Below are positions 1,469-52,016 of a stretch of 64,000 nucleotides of DNA, piece after piece. Each line of letters starts with the position of its first letter. Within the stretch, counting starts at the first letter, position 1. Under the pieces are notes generated by a model that had not been told where the DNA came from, did no database searches, and worked only from the letters and a program-made list of their open reading frames with translations. Position numbers and translations under genes: made by a program. Location: the NCBI RefSeq assembly GCF_003402975.1, contig NZ_QURB01000002.1, positions 422,101 through 486,100 on the forward strand, given 5' to 3'. This DNA is from Brumimicrobium aurantiacum. Lineage in GTDB: Bacteria > Bacteroidota > Bacteroidia > Flavobacteriales_D > Crocinitomicaceae.

Positions 1469-4400
1469 TTATCCAATTTTGTTCTGTTACTGGCGAACCA
1501 TTTTTACTATAAGTTAAACCATTTCTTGTTTGTGTTCGAATATACACTTCCCCTCTTCCATCGACTACAACAATACGTCTTGTAACGATTTTAACAGGTA
1601 TTCCCTTACTGTCTTTTCTAATATAGTTTTCCTGAGTAACTCCTTCTGGGAAATCTTCCCCTAACTCATTCGCTATAGCTTCGGTAAAGTTGATTTTGTT
1701 ATTTTCAATATCGTCTATATAGCTTCCAGTATTTCTATTTTCTTCTACCTCACGTTGTCTTTTATTTCTGTTTTTTTCTTCGTAATTATCTATACGCTCC
1801 TTCACATCCTTTTCAACAACTGTTAGGTCTTTGGTGTTTTTTATCGATCTTTCAGTATTTTCAGTTTTAATCCCTTCTACTTCCAAGTAAATTTCTTCTG
1901 TTCGGTCTTCTTTTTCTTTACTTCTTTCGAGATTTTGAACCTGTTGACTTTGATCCATTTCTTTTAACTGTTCCACTGCTCTTTGTCGGGCATCATCTTT
2001 TCCTAATGTAGTTTTATCATATTGATTTTCGTAAGCCGTAATTTGCTCATCAATTTCTACACTAACACCATGAACTGTACTCGCTTCATTTTCGTATTTC
2101 TTTTCTAATGTCATTTCATAAGCAAGAAGATCTTCTTTCATCTGTTGTTGAATTGCACCTTTTTCTTGAGAAGATTCCGCCACTTTAATTTCAGCTAAAA
2201 TCGCCTCATCTTGCAAACGAATTACATCTTCATACTCCGTTCTTGAATCTTCAACTGGATTCTGACCGTTTTCGATTTCATCAATCTCCTCACCTGTTGC
2301 TGTAACCTTAACATGATGATGTTTTGATTCAGTTTTAGTCATAATATTACGTTCCGACTCAATGGCTTTTAACTCTTCTATGGCATCTTTATGCTTTGCT
2401 CGATAATCAGCCTTCTCAACATCAAAATCATCTTTTACATATTCAATCTCTTGACTTGAACGAGATAACTCTCCATCTTTATACTTCGTCAATTGATTCG
2501 TTTTCTTTTCAAAAGTGTAGATCTGATCATCGACTTTTTGTGCCAATTCTCCTTTGTTCTCTTCTTCTTTTAATTGTGATTGATCTCTTAAATCGGCAAT
2601 TGCTTTTACCTCATTATTAAACTCGACACGTTCATCATAATCACTCAGTTCACGTTGAGCATCCTCTCCTTCAAACTTACTTAATCGATTTGCAACAGCC
2701 GCTTGCTTCAAACGCTCTCTTTCGATTTCTCCTTCTTGAAGCAAAGCAGCCCCTTCCAATATTGAAATATTAGATTTCTCACCAAGATTTTCTAATCCAC
2801 CTTTTTCCTTAATTAAAGCTGCTAATTTCTGTTGAGCTTTTGCTATTTGTGTCTTAGGATACTGAGATGTACTCTTTAAATTACTCGCACTCTTATAAGC
2901 TGTAATTGCTTTTTCATACTCTTCATTATTGAAATATTCATCAGCGATTTTAATCGATTGTTTATAACGTAAATCTTGTTTTTTCGCTAACTCTTCACTA
3001 GCTTTCTGGATACTTTTACTTAATTGCTCCTTAGCATATGCATCATCGGATTTAATACTTAGTGCTTTTTGGTATGCTGATTTTGCTTGCTGATAACTTT
3101 CATCTTTGAATAATTGATCTGCCTCAGCTATGTATTCATCAAACATTTCTTCTTGAGACTCCTGTTTTCTTTTGGCTTCAGCAAGATTGTCTAAAATCTG
3201 TTGAGTTTCATCAATCTTATCTTTGGCCTTACTATCCTCTTCCTTTATTTCTAAAGCTGATTTATAATTCGCCAAGGCTTTTTCATAGTTCTTATTTACA
3301 AATTCAGTATCTCCTGCAGATATGAAATTATTGTACTCCTCCTCTACTTGATTTGAAGCATTTTCTGTTATCGCTTGGTCTACTTTTAAAATTTGAGCCT
3401 TTGGATATTCTTCTTCAGCTTTATAAGATAATGCCTCATTATACAAGACAATACTTTCTTTATAGTCACCACTATTGAATGCCTTGTCTGCATTTGCAAT
3501 CGCCTTTTTGTAATTTTCCTCTAATTGATCTTTTGCATTTACTTTATCCAAAATAGATTGAACCCTATCAATTTCCTCCTGAGGAAAAGTCTCAGATGGT
3601 TTTAAGTTTTTTGCTGTTTTCAAATGCGTAATTGCTTCCTCGAACTTTTCTTCCTTAACTGCTGAAGCGGCTAACTGAATTTCTTCATCATATTTTTCTG
3701 CATTTATTTCAGCTTGCTTATTGGCTTGGATTGCTGCTAATTTTTCTTTGATAACATTCATATTCGCTTCTATCTCTGAATCAGTTTGAATTTTCAAGGC
3801 TTCTTCATATTTAGCTTGCGCATTTTCCCATTTTTCTTTATCAAATAATTTATTTCCGTCTTCTTTTAAAGCCTCAAATTCTTCACTTTGATTTTGTGCC
3901 GTTTCAAAAGCTTCTTTACTCGCTTTAGCTGCTGTTAATTTCTCTTCAACATCTGTTCTGCTTTCATCAATCTTTAACGCCTTTTCATATTTAGCAATTA
4001 CATCCGACCATTTATTTTCTGGCTTCAATGCTTCAGCTTCATCAAGTAATGCTTGTATTTCAGCATTCTTTTCAGCATTTTCTGACTGTAATGCCAACTG
4101 CTCTTCGATCTTTTCAATACGATTATTAACATGCTCATCACCATCATTTATTGCTTTTGCAGCACTATACTTTTCTTTGGCCTTATTCCAATTCTCAGCG
4201 TCAAATGCTTCATCAGCTGCACTTACTAATGAATTAAACTCTGCCTTTGCTTCCTTTTCAGATTGCTGTGCTTCATATTCTGCTTTGCTTGCTTTTGCTG
4301 CTTCTAACATTTCTGAAACATCTGTTCTTCCTTCGTCAATAGCCAATGCAGATTCATATTTTGAAATCACCTCAGACCATTTATTTTCAGGTTTTAATGC

Positions 4401-7103
4401 TTCTGCTTCGTCAAGTAATGCTTGAATTTGTTCTGAAGATTCTGCTTTCGCTTGTTGTGCTTCAAACTCAGCTTTGCTTGCTTTTGCTGCTTCTAACATT
4501 TCTGAAACATCTGTTCTTTCTTCATCAATAGCCAATGCAGATTCATATTTTGAAATCACCTCAGACCATTTATTTTCAGGTTTTAATGCTTCTGCTTCAT
4601 CAAGTAATGCTTGAATTTGTTCTGAAGATTCTGCTTTCGCTTGTTGTGCTTCAAACTCAGCTTTGCTTGCTTTTGCTGCTTCTAACATTTCTGAAACATC
4701 TGTTCTTTCTTCATCAATAGCCAATGCAGATTCATATTTTGAAATTACCTCAGACCATTTATTTTCAGGTTTTAATGCTTCTGCTTCGTCAATTAATGCT
4801 TGAATTTGCTCTGAAGATTCAGCTTTCGCTTGTTGTGCTTCATATTCTGCTTTGCTTGCTTTTGCTGCTTCTAGCATGTCTGAAACATCTGTTCTTTCTT
4901 CGTCAATAGCCAATGCAGATTCATATTTTGAAATCACCTCAGACCATTTATTTTCAGGTTTTAATGCCTCTGCTTCATCAAGTAATGCTTGTATTTCCGC
5001 TGAGTTCGCTTCTTGCTCTGCCACTTTGGATAATGCTGTTTCAACAGCCTCAATTCGCTCATTCACGTGTTTATTATCGTCAAACAAAGCTTTTGCTTCC
5101 AAGTACTTTTCTTTCGCTTTTTCCCATTCAGCATTATCAAAAGCTTGATCTGCAGTTGTCACTAACTCATTGAATTGTGATTCTTTTTCTTGGTTCGCAT
5201 TTTTTTCTACCAACAAAGTTTCAGCATTCTCTTTTCCTTTTATCGCTTCAGCGTTCGTTTCTTCAATCGCTAAAACAGCATCAAAATCAGTAATCGCTCC
5301 TGAGAAATCTTCAGCTGTAAGCTTTTCCTTAGCACTTGCCAATAAGCCATCAATTTGTTCACTTTTTTGAGCTTCTGCAATTTTAGATTCAACCTCTGTA
5401 ATTCTATTATTCACATGTTCATTATCATCAAAAACACCTTGTGCTTCAACGTATTTAGTCTTTGCTTCTTCCCATGTTTTTGCTTCAAAGGCTTGATCAG
5501 CTGCTGCTACTAGTTCTTCAAACTTAGCTTGTTTTTCTTGGCTAACCTTCTTTTCTTCAAGCAAAGCTGCTGCATTTTCTTTACCAGTTTTCGCTTCTGT
5601 ATTCGTTTCATCAATAGCTAGAACAGCATCAAAATCATTGATAGCCCCTGAATAATCTTCTGCTGAAACTTTTTCTTTAGCTGCAGTCAATAAATCCGCA
5701 ATTTGTTGGGCCTGTTGCTCTTTATTCTTTTGTTCTTCCAATAGACTTTTCGCATTGTCTAATTTTGTTTGAACCTCTGGACTTTCCATTAGAGCAATTG
5801 CTTGGGTATATTTGTCAATAGCAGGTTGATATTCTTTTGCGCTAATGTGTGCGTCTGCTTCAGTGACAAGTTTATTAAATTCTTCCTGACTTTTAGCTTT
5901 AGAAATTTCTTCTTTGGCCATTTTTATTCTTCCTGGTGGATAAGTCGCTGCACTTTCAAATGTCAAAGCCTCTTCATATTTAACAATAGCTTCTTCAAAA
6001 TTTCCAGCATCAAAGAGTTTATCAGCTTCGGCCACTGCTTTATTATAATTATCTTTCTTTTCCTTTATGGCTTTCTGTTCATCCAACTTTCCTTTAATTA
6101 TCTCCAATTGAGACTTCGGGTATTCTTCATTCGGTAAAATTTTCAAGGCATTTTGATACATATCTCTTGCTGCTTGAACACTATTTTGTTTAAAGAAACC
6201 ATCGGCACGTTTGATCAACTTATCATATTCTGCCTGCTTTTTCGCCTTTTCTTTTTCAGCATTTAACGTAGCAATTCGATCTTTTGGATATTGTTCATCG
6301 TCTTTAATTACAATGGCCTCTTCATATTTTGAAATGGCTTTATCATATTCTTTGGCTTTGGCAAAATTATCTGCAGCTGCGATCAAATTTAAGTAGGCTT
6401 GATTATCTTGTTGGAAAGCCAACTCCTCCTCTTCCTTCTTCTGAAGTAACTCTTCAATTTCCAATAAACGGGCATTGGGATGCGCCTCTTTTTGCTTACC
6501 CGGTAACTGCAAAGCAGCAACATATTTATTCAATGCTTCCTCTAATTTACCTTCATCAAATAATTTGTCAGCATCTTTAATCAATTTGTTATACTCCGCA
6601 TCTGCATTTTTTAAAGCGCTTTCTGCTTCCAATAATAAATTTTCAATTTTCTTTTTGGTTTGCATCATTTGACCGTTGTTGTAATTCATTCGGTCACCAT
6701 CAAGATACCATTTTACCACAGGAGTTGTTTCCAAAAATGAAAAATCATAACCAGGTCTTTTTTGAAATAGATCTAGATTAATTGGAGGGAAAATCTTTCC
6801 ACCAGGAGGCATATCTTCAGCAATAACAGAAGTTACATCTAATTCAATGATTTTTGTAACATAACCAGATTTGGTGTATTTCACAGTATACTTCTTTCCA
6901 ACAGGAAAGTTTACGGAGTACTTCCCTCCACCAGAGGTCGTTGAACTTGTAACATTCAAACCACCCGAAAGAACAGTAACTGTAACTCCTGATATAGATT
7001 TTTGCGAGTCCATGTCTGTGATTGTACCATCATAAGTAATGTTTTGACCATAGCCAAAATTAACAAAAAGTACAAATGCTAAAATTGAGAAAAAATGCTT
7101 CAT
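1431..7103 (-). CDS. giant secreted TPR/coiled-coil protein with carboxypeptidase-regulatory-like N-terminus
   Basis: 1890 residues with a signal peptide ending at about residue 19 (FGYGQ). Residues about 22-95 form a carboxypeptidase regulatory-like beta-sandwich (DGTITDMDSQKSISGVTVTV, then KSGYVTKIIELDV). Residues about 150-1400 are more than twenty degenerate TPR-like helical pairs of the type ADKLFDxGxxEEAIxKYEEAL followed by YPxxRI. Four consecutive 63-residue units (residues about 698-950) are almost identical. The last 450 residues are highly charged, coiled-coil-like and lack TPRs, ending in a small domain around RIVVVDGRGEVYIRT. The protein is probably an exported periplasmic or envelope scaffold. 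No catalytic motif is visible. It is the first gene of a minus-strand run that continues into apbE. The function is unknown. Confidence 0.85.
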   Translation of the reverse strand: MKHFFSILAFVLFVNFGYGQNITYDGTITDMDSQKSISGVTVTVLSGGLNVTSSTTSGGGKYSVNFPVGKKYTVKYTKSGYVTKIIELDVTSVIAEDMPPGGKIFPPINLDLFQKRPGYDFSFLETTPVVKWYLDGDRMNYNNGQMMQTKKKIENLLLEAESALKNADAEYNKLIKDADKLFDEGKLEEALNKYVAALQLPGKQKEAHPNARLLEIEELLQKKEEEELAFQQDNQAYLNLIAAADNFAKAKEYDKAISKYEEAIVIKDDEQYPKDRIATLNAEKEKAKKQAEYDKLIKRADGFFKQNSVQAARDMYQNALKILPNEEYPKSQLEIIKGKLDEQKAIKEKKDNYNKAVAEADKLFDAGNFEEAIVKYEEALTFESAATYPPGRIKMAKEEISKAKSQEEFNKLVTEADAHISAKEYQPAIDKYTQAIALMESPEVQTKLDNAKSLLEEQKNKEQQAQQIADLLTAAKEKVSAEDYSGAINDFDAVLAIDETNTEAKTGKENAAALLEEKKVSQEKQAKFEELVAAADQAFEAKTWEEAKTKYVEAQGVFDDNEHVNNRITEVESKIAEAQKSEQIDGLLASAKEKLTAEDFSGAITDFDAVLAIEETNAEAIKGKENAETLLVEKNANQEKESQFNELVTTADQAFDNAEWEKAKEKYLEAKALFDDNKHVNERIEAVETALSKVAEQEANSAEIQALLDEAEALKPENKWSEVISKYESALAIDEERTDVSDMLEAAKASKAEYEAQQAKAESSEQIQALIDEAEALKPENKWSEVISKYESALAIDEERTDVSEMLEAAKASKAEFEAQQAKAESSEQIQALLDEAEALKPENKWSEVISKYESALAIDEERTDVSEMLEAAKASKAEFEAQQAKAESSEQIQALLDEAEALKPENKWSEVISKYESALAIDEGRTDVSEMLEAAKASKAEYEAQQSEKEAKAEFNSLVSAADEAFDAENWNKAKEKYSAAKAINDGDEHVNNRIEKIEEQLALQSENAEKNAEIQALLDEAEALKPENKWSDVIAKYEKALKIDESRTDVEEKLTAAKASKEAFETAQNQSEEFEALKEDGNKLFDKEKWENAQAKYEEALKIQTDSEIEANMNVIKEKLAAIQANKQAEINAEKYDEEIQLAASAVKEEKFEEAITHLKTAKNLKPSETFPQEEIDRVQSILDKVNAKDQLEENYKKAIANADKAFNSGDYKESIVLYNEALSYKAEEEYPKAQILKVDQAITENASNQVEEEYNNFISAGDTEFVNKNYEKALANYKSALEIKEEDSKAKDKIDETQQILDNLAEAKRKQESQEEMFDEYIAEADQLFKDESYQQAKSAYQKALSIKSDDAYAKEQLSKSIQKASEELAKKQDLRYKQSIKIADEYFNNEEYEKAITAYKSASNLKSTSQYPKTQIAKAQQKLAALIKEKGGLENLGEKSNISILEGAALLQEGEIERERLKQAAVANRLSKFEGEDAQRELSDYDERVEFNNEVKAIADLRDQSQLKEEENKGELAQKVDDQIYTFEKKTNQLTKYKDGELSRSSQEIEYVKDDFDVEKADYRAKHKDAIEELKAIESERNIMTKTESKHHHVKVTATGEEIDEIENGQNPVEDSRTEYEDVIRLQDEAILAEIKVAESSQEKGAIQQQMKEDLLAYEMTLEKKYENEASTVHGVSVEIDEQITAYENQYDKTTLGKDDARQRAVEQLKEMDQSQQVQNLERSKEKEDRTEEIYLEVEGIKTENTERSIKNTKDLTVVEKDVKERIDNYEEKNRNKRQREVEENRNTGSYIDDIENNKINFTEAIANELGEDFPEGVTQENYIRKDSKGIPVKIVTRRIVVVDGRGEVYIRTQTRNGLTYSKNGSPVTEQNWINGTEDANLEKHY
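4258..5012 (-). repeat. tandem 189-bp coding repeats, four near-identical copies
   Basis: Inside the giant TPR gene, a 189-bp unit (63 codons) is repeated four times head to tail. Each unit encodes a segment containing DEAEALKPENKW, SKYESALAIDEERTDVS and EAAKASKAE. Copies differ by only a few substitutions (D/E, I/L, Y/F, G/E). A fifth, more diverged copy lies at about 3890-4060. Because the period is a multiple of three, copy-number change would keep the reading frame. Boundaries are approximate. Confidence 0.9.
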
Positions 7104-44934: not shown

Positions 44935-45336
44935 GGGGCTGACCTGGATTTGACAGCAACTGCATCTAATTAGTATAAGCATGTCGAGCCATGTGGTGAG
45001 TCTCGTTAATCTCTGGTCACACACGATAATTGACAACACGTCATATAATCTTGCAGCCTAATAACCTCAGGTTATTACGCTTAATCCACTCCGAAGCACA
45101 GTAAGAGGGACAAGTTTCTCGCCAGTTCTCCCGTCTCATGAGCGCTGGATCCCGAGAAATCAACAATTTGAGAATAGTTTGTAAACGGCTTCTGTTTGCA
45201 TGCGAAATTGAATGAAGATAAGTTATGGTAAGGGTGTTTGTGTCCGTTCCATAATCGAAAACCTAATCACAAACTAAACATGTAGAAGGCTGATTATTTC
45301 ATTGTTTGGACGAGGGTTCGAACCCCTCCAGCTCCA
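44935..45336 (+). ncRNA. ssrA: transfer-messenger RNA
   Basis: About 402 nt. The 5' end GGGGCTG pairs with CAGCTCC at the 3' end as a 7-bp acceptor stem. The 3' T-arm reads GAGGGTTCGAACCCCTC. The conserved GACCTGGATTTGACAGC stretch follows the 5' end. The tag reading frame, with stop codons TAA TAA at 45059, runs from about 45032: GAC AAC ACG TCA TAT AAT CTT GCA GCC, giving a tag (A)DNTSYNLAA with the usual LAA end. The resume codon is inferred from ATAATT standing where E. coli has ATAGTC. CCA is not fully encoded (ACA follows). tmRNA rescues stalled ribosomes with SmpB. Confidence 0.96.
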
Positions 45337-45340
45337 CAAA

Positions 45341-46436
45341 ACAGTTTTGAGCAAGAGTACTGAGCATACAGCGAAGTAGCTCTTGCGAAAAAATGTTTTG
45401 TCCCTCAAGACTCACACTCAAACTCAAACTAAATCAGTATTTAGCAAGAGTATCAGCATACAGGAAAACCACAAGTTCATCAGAATAAAATGTATAATTC
45501 CTATATCAAAGGAAATATAGTTCAGTTTTGAACAAATGCAATTACAGTTTTGAGCAAGAGTACTGAGCATACAGCGAAGTAGCTCTTGCGAAAAAATGTT
45601 TTGTCCCTCAAGACTCACACTCAAACTCAAACTAAATCAGTATTTAGCAAGAGTATCAGCATACAGGAAAACCACAAGTTCATCAGAATAAAATGTATAA
45701 TTCCTATATCAAAGGAAATATAGTTCAGTTTTGAACAAATGCAATTACAGTTTTGAGCAAGAGTACTGAGCATACAGCGAAGTAGCTCTTGCGAAAAAAT
45801 GTTTTGTCCCTCAAGACTCACACTCAAACTCAAACTAAATCAGTATTTAGCAAGAGTATCAGCATACAGGAAAACCACAAGTTCATCAGAATAAATTGTA
45901 TAATTCCTATATCAAAGGAAATATAGTTCAGTTTTGAACAAATGCAATTACAGTTTTGAGCAAGAGTACTGAGCATACAGCGAAGTAACTCTTGCGAAAA
46001 AATGTTTTGTCCCTCAAGACTCACACTCAAACTCAAACTAAATCAGTATGTAGCAAGAGTATCAGCATACAGGAAAACCACAAGTTCATCAGAATAAAAT
46101 GTATAACTCCTATATCGAAGGAAATATAGTTCAGTTTTGAACAAATGCAATTACAGTTTTGAGCAAGAGTACTGAGCATACAGCGAAGTAGCTCTTGCGA
46201 AAAAATGTTTTGTCCCTCAAGACTCGTACTCAAACTCAAACTAAATCAGTATTTAGCAAGAGTATTCAGCATACAGGAAAACCACAAGTTCATCAGAATA
46301 AAATGTATAACTCCTATATCGAAGGAAATATAGTTCAGTTTTGAACAAATGCAATTACAGTTTTGAGCAAGAGTACTGAGCATACAGCGAAGTAGCTCTT
46401 GCGAAAAAATGTTTTGTCCCTCAAGACTCGTACTCC
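45341..46436. repeat. tandem array of 203-bp repeats directly downstream of tmRNA
   Basis: Five full units start at 45341, 45544, 45747, 45950 and 46153 (period 203, the last 204), with a partial sixth at 46357-46436. Units 1 and 2 are identical; unit 3 differs by one base; units 4 and 5 by several. Each unit holds two copies of a GCAAGAGTAyTnAGCATACAG motif, a GCAAGAG/CTCTTGC hairpin and a GTTCA-GTTT-TGAAC hairpin. On the minus strand each unit contains a 68-codon frame overlapping the next by 4 bp; these look like a by-product of the period. No gene or known RNA explains the array. Confidence 0.95.
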
Positions 46437-46729
46437 AAGACAGTATTGGGCAAGAGTATTTAGCATACAGGACGATTTTTATTGGGTAATTGACGCTAAC
46501 TATTTCCTCTTTTTTCAAACTCAAACTAATTCGGTACGTAGCAAGAGCAATTACAGTATTCAGCATACAGTTTCAGAATACATGACTTACTTTTTATTAA
46601 CTACCAACATTTCTAAAATTGTTTTACCTTAAACATGGTATTGCCTTTTCTTTATAAGCTTTCTAATTTTACGTATTATTTAGAACAATTCTAAATAATT
46701 GAAATTGTTAAATTTAAGTCTAGACAGTC
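46437..46729. other. degenerate distal edge of the repeat array and spacer
   Basis: Two further decayed copies of the GCAAGAG...AGCATACAG motif lie at about 46448-46471 and 46538-46570. They show that the array once extended further or grew from this side. After 46570 the sequence is ordinary AT-rich spacer up to the 105-residue gene. Confidence 0.6.
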
Positions 46730-47047
46730 ATGCCTCAACAAATACTCTCTCACGATAAAAATGGTTTTATCGCTATATGCAATAATTGTGGAAATTATCA
46801 AATCTTTTTTGGCACCACCGGAATCTACTTAAAGTATAATGAACTTATGGAGATTATTGAATTTGCAAGAGATGAATATAAGTACTTTCAAAACTATGAA
46901 TACATTGATCAAAAGTGCATTCAAATACCAACTTTCAATGATAATACCCAATTAGTCTTGACTTATCGTGAACTACAAAAACTCCAAGTTCTTCTTGAAG
47001 AAGCATCTATCATGATTCAAGTGCACAATATTTTAAATGAAAGGTAG
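46730..47047 (+). CDS. small cytoplasmic protein of unknown function
   Basis: 105 residues, no signal peptide. An N-terminal CNNCGNYQIFFGTTGIYL segment has a CxxC pair that could hold a metal with other ligands, followed by a helical C-terminus (LTYRELQKLQVLLEEA). It resembles a small Bacteroidota-only family with a C-x-x-C-G-x-(Y/F)-x-(L/I)-x-F-G start (possibly DUF6686), which I cannot name with certainty. It is isolated between the repeat array and a convergent gene. Confidence 0.65.
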   Translation: MPQQILSHDKNGFIAICNNCGNYQIFFGTTGIYLKYNELMEIIEFARDEYKYFQNYEYIDQKCIQIPTFNDNTQLVLTYRELQKLQVLLEEASIMIQVHNILNER

Positions 47048-50801: not shown

Positions 50802-52016
50802 ATGAGGTCAAAAATTTCGCAAATAAGTCAATGGCTACTCATCGTTATACTTGTTTCTATAGTTGCAGGAAGTATTTCAGCACTTTTCTTGGGAAGTCTA
50901 TCATTTGTAACCAATCTACGTTCTAATCACGATATTTTCATTTATCTTTTACCTATTGGTGGATTATTAATTGGACTCATGTACTTCTATGGTTCAAGAG
51001 GTGTTGAAGGTGGAAACAATTTACTCATCAAGGAAATGAATGCTCCTAAAACAACAATTCATTGGAAAATCGTCCCATTGGTTTTTATTGGAACGATAAC
51101 AACACATTTATTTGGCGGTTCCGCTGGACGAGAAGGAACTGCTGTCCAAATGGGAGGAGCTATTGGTGACGCAATAACTTACTTCTTTAAATGGACTAAA
51201 AAACATAGAAAACGTTTATTAAGAATGGGAGTTGCAGCTGGGTTTTCTGGAGTATTTGGAACCCCACTCGCAGGTGCAATTTTCGCTTTTGAATTGGCAA
51301 GAGATAAAAAGTTCAATATTCAAGATTCTATCTTGGTTATAATGACCTCTTTTGGTGGACACATTTTTTGTATAATTTGGGGAGTAAATCATACAACTTA
51401 TCCTGTAAAAATGTTCCCCGAATTTTCATGGACCCTACTGCTATTGGTAATTATCGCAGGACTTTCTTTTGGAGTTTCCGCCTATGTTTTCGCAAAATTC
51501 AAACAGTTTTTTACCCAGCTTTTCAGTAAAATACAAATTCCCTTTTTACGACCAATGATTGGAGGAATAATCTTACTGCTCCTATTTATCACTTTTAAAA
51601 TCCGACCATTTCTAGGATTAGGAATTCCCGAAATTCAAGATGCATTTATGCAACAACAATTTGAGTTCAGTTTTCTGATTAAGATTTTACTCACCGCATT
51701 AACATTAGGAGCTGGGTTCAAAGGTGGAGAAGCCACTCCACTCTTCTTCATTGGTGCTATGTTGGGAAATACATTATTCTTATTCCTACCATTACCGATG
51801 GACTTCCTTGCAGCTTTAGGTTTTGTCGCTGTATTTGGTGCAGCAACCAATACGCCTATTGCAAGTAGCTTGATTGGTGCAGAGTTATTTGGATTTGAAG
51901 GATTGTTGTATTTTACAATCGCCAATTTCTTCGCTTATATCATTTCAGGAAACAATAGTGTTTATAGCGATCAACAAAAGTTATTGAAAAAGAAATCACT
52001 TTTTTCACGCAAATAA
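50802..52016 (+). CDS. CLC-family fluoride/proton antiporter (CLC-F type)
   Basis: 404 residues with about ten membrane helices. Family motifs: GSAGREGTAVQMG (GREG with the gating Glu, followed by Thr instead of the Pro of chloride CLCs), GFSGVFGTPLAGAIFAFE, GGEATPLFFIGAMLG and TNTPIASSLIGAELF. The GREGT and GGEATP forms are those of CLC-F antiporters that export F- in exchange for H+. The canonical GSGIP motif of chloride CLCs is absent (region reads YGSRGVEGGNN). The riboswitch immediately upstream independently supports fluoride as the substrate. Monocistronic; hairpin terminator at 52010-52049. Confidence 0.85.
   Translation: MRSKISQISQWLLIVILVSIVAGSISALFLGSLSFVTNLRSNHDIFIYLLPIGGLLIGLMYFYGSRGVEGGNNLLIKEMNAPKTTIHWKIVPLVFIGTITTHLFGGSAGREGTAVQMGGAIGDAITYFFKWTKKHRKRLLRMGVAAGFSGVFGTPLAGAIFAFELARDKKFNIQDSILVIMTSFGGHIFCIIWGVNHTTYPVKMFPEFSWTLLLLVIIAGLSFGVSAYVFAKFKQFFTQLFSKIQIPFLRPMIGGIILLLLFITFKIRPFLGLGIPEIQDAFMQQQFEFSFLIKILLTALTLGAGFKGGEATPLFFIGAMLGNTLFLFLPLPMDFLAALGFVAVFGAATNTPIASSLIGAELFGFEGLLYFTIANFFAYIISGNNSVYSDQQKLLKKKSLFSRK

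Follow-up and report, generated by a model that had tools for sequence, protein, structure and literature searches.

The stretch of DNA analysed here (64 kb, the window) carries a tmRNA gene (ssrA) with a tandem repeat array close behind its 3′ end (Table 1). TRF called the array at 45341-46429 with a period of 203, 5.4 copies and 98% matches. Unit comparison gave five full units and a partial one, starting at 45341 (4 nt beyond the end of tmRNA), 45544, 45747, 45950, 46153 and 46357 (four spacings of 203, then one of 204), a copy number that comes from a 22-contig assembly in which another array of the same motif contains an N gap. The array reported beside tmRNA in the preliminary description is thus real, and so is the drift with distance that it described: unit 2 is identical to unit 1, units 3, 4 and 5 differ from it at 1, 4 and 5 positions, and unit 6 diverges after about 80 nt. 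Its estimate of about 13 motif copies also holds, as AGCATACAG occurs 13 times within 45001-47000, every time in the array; GCAAGAG occurs 14 times in this interval, 13 of these within the array. A 25-nt core pattern (TTGAGCAAGAGTNNTGAGCATACAG, up to 3 mismatches) has eight sites in the 64-kb window, all in the array (0/100 dinucleotide shuffles), and GAG or CTC triads at 3-4 nt spacing are confined to the array on scanning both strands of the 64 kb. The four neighbouring proteins that were scanned are PriA, DUF6686, DUF3307 and SatD, with no integrase among them. At gathering score, Rfam recognised only the tmRNA and a fluoride riboswitch in the window, the array giving below-gathering matches only. 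The riboswitch (RF01734, 50718-50781, 43.6 bits) lies 21 nt upstream of a 404-aa ORF (50802-52016) that has, by eye, the look of a ClC-type channel. A second tandem array at 4263-4996 (3.9 copies, 95% matches) is possibly a coding repeat, since its period of 189 is a multiple of three.

Table 1 Features of the ssrA locus and its repeat array, in window coordinates
Feature	Position	Strand	Basis
tmRNA (ssrA), gene bearing the putative attached element	44935..45337	+	ARAGORN; Rfam RF00023 extends to 45339
Hairpin copy 1, abuts tmRNA; left arm is the tmRNA trailer	45336..45401	+	Folding z -6.35, covariation, model R1
Five full tandem units, 203/204 bp	45341..46356	+	TRF and unit comparison
CTC-rich tail, unit 1	45402..45430	+	Sequence, triads; similar tails by eye in relatives
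Second GAG motif of unit 1, half-hairpin (CAGTATTTAGCAAGAGTATCAGCATACAG)	45435..45463	+	Word positions
Hairpin copy 2, left arm weaker	45537..45609	+	Model R1 and unit comparison
Hairpin copy 3	45740..45812	+	Model R1 and unit comparison
Hairpin copy 4	45943..46015	+	Model R1 and unit comparison
Hairpin copy 5	46146..46218	+	Model R1 and unit comparison
Hairpin copy 6, opens the partial unit	46350..46422	+	Model R1 and unit comparison
Diverged motif copy beyond the partial unit	46441..46470	+	Core-pattern scan and word positions
Most diverged motif words, far end of the array	46538..46570	+	Word positions

Hairpin copy 1 contains two GA/GA internal loops and a GC-ATACA-GC cap. Its predicted fold has an energy of -27.9 kcal/mol (z -6.35), and model R1 scores it at 88.6 bits (45335-45406). 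The arms are ACAAAACA and TGTTTTGT, the left one being supplied by the tmRNA trailer. In copies 2-6 the right arm is still TGTTTTGT, but the left arm is GCAATTACA and the fold is weaker (-23.4 compared with -28.4 kcal/mol for copy 1). A conserved right arm facing a mismatched left arm, with a weaker fold, makes the tmRNA-adjacent copy look ancestral, and array copies 2-6 probably derive from it. In an alignment of nine hairpins from tmRNA, tRNA-Ser, tRNA-Arg and related sites, two-sided changes were seen in 9 of 24 pairs and 90.2% of cells were paired, neither value being reached in 500 shuffles and slid versions of the structure pairing at only 38-54%; these controls lean toward the structure, since it came from the fold of the window itself and was tested on related sequences. 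One covariation measure, further pair types, was matched by 10 of the 500 shuffles. A Bacteroidales hairpin (L128), which is arranged differently, is included in alignment A1 and omitted from A2 and from the pair count. A candidate pseudoknot that would pair the tmRNA trailer with TGTTTTGT and GTTTTGAG with CTCAAGAC was dropped, as the nested hairpin has the lowest free energy and agrees with the alignment.

No terminator-like site was called on the + strand of the array, and the stem is followed by GAAAAAATGTTTTGT, not by an immediate T-run. The earlier statement that no terminator precedes the array stands in so far as no canonical one was called on the + strand, and is weakened by the first array copy itself, a strong hairpin. 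Like the intrinsic terminators and tRNA trailers of Flavobacteriales, the ssrA hairpin lies right 3′ of an RNA gene, and related tRNA hairpins have terminal T-runs. Unlike the terminators, it places GAAAAAA between the stem and the U-rich strand, and the terminator search did not call it; unlike either, its motif recurs as half copies 3′ of protein genes. The tRNA hairpins with T-runs support a putative terminator-like role, but the ssrA form has no T-run directly after the stem.

The motif was searched for in wider sets of genomes. The genome of the window contains 15 core-pattern sites in three places. Two motif clusters in this genome, L009 (C12:297.9-298.3 kb, containing an N run) and L010 (C18:33.3-33.7 kb, between a TonB-like gene and a CAT-anticodon tRNA with a motif-like trailer), have spacers different from that of the array. 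The core pattern was present in 7 of 20 genomes and its reversed control in 0/20. An exact motif scan over 84,980 species returned 42 stretches, 41 with Bacteroidota titles; in an evenly drawn phylum sample, only the window's own genome was positive (1/296), so that the motif is sporadic. Among phages, plasmids and viral contigs there was no match. For orientation, 43 copies were placed with an ORF rule of at least 100 aa, after removal of L122 (Dactylosporangium, actinobacterial). Among the 40 with an upstream neighbour, 33 are in sense and 7 antisense, a count that includes tandem pairs and orthologous sites, hence partly non-independent copies, and that scores L128 as antisense although a tmRNA abuts it. 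For 20 of the 43, the start lies no more than 20 nt from where a sense ORF, tRNA or tmRNA ends. In three Brumimicrobium genomes (L088, L089, L103) the motif lies 3′ of one orthologous gene, whose end reads ..CPAASRIVEAMR.. by eye, so that certain copies persist at a single site in different species. In some MAGs (L133, L151, L116) it takes the form of 13-nt tandem repeats (GAGCAAGAGTATT-like) directly after ORFs, a period that places TGA in all three frames. At L138 and L144 it is antisense within a long ORF, with similar surroundings in both genomes.

Model R1 matched 14 of 150 family genomes. Leaving aside array copies 2-6, 20 of the 25 matches listed remain, and half of these (10/20) abut a tRNA or tmRNA 3′ end: tmRNA in G000 (the window's genome), G001, G014, G347, G361, G371 and G383, tRNA-Arg in G014, tRNA-Ser in G016 and tRNA-Leu in G373. 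Three more lie 159-175 nt past tRNA-Arg, two of these tRNAs carrying a first hairpin directly, and the remaining seven follow ORF stops or pseudo tRNA 3′ ends (by eye). A separate survey of 29 tmRNA loci (30 genomes, that of the window included; one locus cut at a contig end) found the hairpin in three, G000, G001 and G014; the others have different sequence, mostly T-run terminators by eye. Acceptor-half copies of the tRNA/tmRNA 3′ end with an altered T-arm lie about 100-200 nt downstream, mostly with a terminator; such copies occur 3′ of ssrA at L071 (G002), L079 (G003), L077 (G004), L083 (G015) and L072 (G032), and likewise downstream of the window genome's own tRNA-Leu(gag) (L286).

The sister locus lies in G001, a relative of the same genus. 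There, too, priA (88% identity across 457 aa) and ssrA share one neighbourhood, and 111 nt across the tmRNA end and hairpin match the window at 93.7% identity. Beyond the hairpin, G001 has a GAG array with a spacer of its own, an intact 114-aa gene, and the motif again after the stop codon; no DNA similarity to this gene region was found in the window 3′ of the array. The preliminary description had suggested looking among relatives for similar repeats beside ssrA. These exist in so far as the hairpin abuts ssrA within the family and G001 has an array, but the 203-bp spacer has no match in any relative beyond the hairpin or short motif. As the other motif loci form arrays with different spacers, the ssrA array looks like a local amplification.

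The G001 gene encodes a four-helix-bundle protein (PF05635) of the 23S rRNA intervening-sequence (IVS) protein family, and ORFs of this family follow the ssrA hairpin in G361, G383 and, in broken form, G347 as well. A same-family ORF is also present at the loci L127 and L128, broken in both. Five proteins that were scanned match PF05635 and TIGR02436, with a weak match to the solved XCC0516 (2gsc); PADLOC gave no match on two proteins. In G361 the order is tmRNA, hairpin, gene, hairpin, partial gene, the second hairpin being 3′ of the gene's stop. With the G001 protein as query (E 1e-28), the subfamily was found in 35 of 299 genomes of the order (42 matches). In a phylum sample it was found in 0/395 at 1e-26 with L258 as query, a sample that includes no positive genome and a query and cut-off unlike those of the order search. 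We compared 30 fetched loci of the 42 subfamily matches with 27 of 30 fetched PF05635 loci (controls; L240, L241 and L254 were omitted as subfamily members), loci and sequences being related and the counts not independent. The gene lies on the same strand within 600 nt 3′ of a tRNA or tmRNA at 16/30 subfamily loci and 0/27 controls, the other 14 having no recognised tRNA or tmRNA within 600 nt. GAG/CTC triads are found upstream at 19/30 and 1/27 loci, respectively. Direct repeats flank the gene at 13/30 subfamily loci and also at 7/27 controls, and therefore do not discriminate the subfamily.

The subfamily separates from four other PF05635 proteins in a phylogenetic tree (97/88). Within it, genes linked to Leu(caa), Leu(gag) and Leu(taa) tRNAs are interleaved, which suggests changes of target site, the base of the tree being poorly supported. 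Ratios of dN/dS, obtained by a simple count, were 0.03-0.16 for eight pairs, several of them with dS >1, and a ninth pair was saturated; on these values the protein is under purifying selection. In Lishizhenia (L259) the motif and a subfamily gene lie 3′ of the same protein gene as in G009 (86% identical, 453 aa); in G009 (L136) the motif is followed a few hundred bases on, judging from coordinates, by a broken match to another PF05635 protein. The genome of the window gave no match to a subfamily member, the best tblastn hit in the window having an E value of 1.4. It encodes four other PF05635 genes, and the two that were fetched (L232, L248) have no tRNA or tmRNA within 600 nt upstream. Several PF05635 genes outside the subfamily that are not tRNA-linked (L231, L232, L235, L239, L246) are flanked by direct repeats of 52-237 nt with 74-85% identity, and possibly represent another element type.

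Taken together, we read the array as the product of tandem multiplication, in place, of a small IVS-like element that is attached to the 3′ end of ssrA and here has no ORF, and assign this reading a probability of roughly one half. In relatives, the fuller form of the element is a tRNA or tmRNA 3′ end, an abutting hairpin, a CTC-rich tail and a PF05635 gene, to which some loci add another hairpin or a GAG motif 3′ of the gene. Because the gene is absent from the window, membership of the window array in this element rests on the relatives. The hairpin would be transcribed as a tmRNA trailer, after which the transcript would end there or the hairpin would be cut off; the tmRNA could then still mature and the element would be tolerated. 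The window copy may have lost the gene or never had one, and the array may have grown from the tmRNA-adjacent copy, either by slippage or through unequal recombination. On this reading the array need not have a function of its own. We infer mobility, transcription and RNA processing of the element. Two ideas of the preliminary description survive in part. The small RNA family that it proposed is borne out as a conserved structured element, its expression as an RNA being predicted only. A relic of an element inserted at ssrA is the best fit among the earlier ideas, given the G001 gene between copies of the same motif and the hairpins 3′ of other tRNA and tmRNA genes, but the tmRNA 3′ end and the four scanned neighbours give its classical integrase version no support.

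The main rival reading, which we consider unlikely, assigns the hairpin to the host itself, as a trailer or terminator of ssrA that belongs to a tRNA-trailer type widespread in the family; the array would then be an inert tandem duplication of it and the gene in relatives an independent passenger at tRNA ends. A PF05635 match lies near 4 of the 10 abutting hairpins (G001, G347, G361, G383); the other six, those of G000, G014 (twice), G016, G371 and G373, have none nearby, which fits a host trailer. Similar capped hairpins without a PF05635 gene occur at 3 of 34 tRNA trailers examined in the window's own genome (two tRNA-Met and tRNA-Leu(caa), all with T-runs), which a host trailer would predict. 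These T-run hairpins are linked to the ssrA hairpin by their architecture as judged by eye and not by covariation: they fold well individually, and their alignment (A3) gives a poor common structure of 9 pairs and -2.2 kcal/mol. Ordinary terminators are also duplicated 3′ of ssrA in G002, G003, G004, G015 and G032 (by eye). A host trailer fits less well with the sense orientation of the motif at protein-gene ends (33/40), with the second hairpin after the gene's stop in G361, and with the presence of the hairpin at only three of 29 tmRNA loci.

Attachment-site debris from an integrase-driven element that uses ssrA and tRNA 3′ ends is an improbable source of the repeats. Such debris could account for the pseudo tRNA/tmRNA 3′ ends seen by eye before hairpins at several loci and after ssrA in G002-G004, and for the direct repeats of 59-102 nt that flank the gene at L258, L279 and L284. 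The tmRNA 3′ end has one exact match in the window, the two further matches (3 mismatches each) lying on the other strand 9 kb away; with no duplicated tmRNA end and no integrase among the four scanned neighbours, a classical integrase element is not established, and the lack of matches in phages, plasmids and viral contigs also speaks against it. A functional structured RNA, in which read-through repeat RNA would serve as a buffer for the processing or decay of tmRNA or would bind and sequester a protein, is more improbable still. Every unit does contain a strong conserved hairpin and no canonical terminator was called ahead of the array, but the array state is particular to the window's genome, the G001 array having an unrelated spacer and G014 a single hairpin with no array. 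Spread by a REP-associated tyrosine transposase (RAYT), as for REP/BIME repeats, would explain dispersed intergenic copies in tandem clusters with local spacers and is barely credible, as exact GAGCAAGAG occurs in 0/30 fetched Y1_Tnp loci (one-mismatch words in 7; 2 of 3 Y1_Tnp genes of the window's genome among the fetched loci) and the copies are strongly oriented to gene ends.

Returning to the IVS-like element at ssrA, a wider proposal can be made tentatively. Compact elements of about 0.5 kb (hairpin, CTC tail and one four-helix-bundle gene) may form an undescribed class that colonises tRNA, tmRNA and some protein-gene 3′ ends in Flavobacteriales, moves between targets, survives as a trailer, and leaves hairpin and GAG scars that amplify into arrays, in effect an IVS with tRNA ends in place of 23S rRNA. 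Among the matches listed from full-text searches of one open-access library, we found no title or abstract on tRNA- or tmRNA-linked four-helix-bundle elements.

With REP/BIME sequences (PMC3733652) the repeats share dispersed intergenic copies and tandem arrays with local spacers; they differ from these in having no RAYT link, in half copies without the complementary arm (by eye) and in their gene-end orientation. Islands integrated at tRNA genes or ssrA likewise use tRNA/tmRNA 3′ ends, and pseudo 3′ ends are found at some of our loci; in contrast to islands, the element is about 0.5 kb with one non-recombinase ORF, and the window has no duplicated tmRNA end. Repeats beside ssrA can be element scars, not regulatory RNAs. 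Four-helix-bundle (S23/IVP) proteins are best known from 23S rRNA inserts, and a PF05635/S23-type ORF is present in part of the 23S rRNA IVS elements. A study of the Coxiella IVS describes it as a selfish element with an S23p/four-helix-bundle ORF, excised by RNase III, and gives these proteins no known function (PMC4990558). A subfamily tied to tRNA and tmRNA ends together with a hairpin would offer a compact test system for insertion, harmless processing and the protein's ligand. The likeness to the Coxiella IVS is that a short element rides on a stable RNA gene and combines one ORF of the PF05635 type with a strong stem-loop. The differences are that the hosts here are tRNA and tmRNA 3′ ends, not 23S rRNA helices; that the hairpin is mostly ahead of the gene, the window hairpin enclosing no ORF; that the window copy has no ORF, the PF05635/S23-type ORF being met in relatives; and that the subfamily protein is under purifying selection, whereas the Coxiella ORF is described as decaying (PMC4990558).
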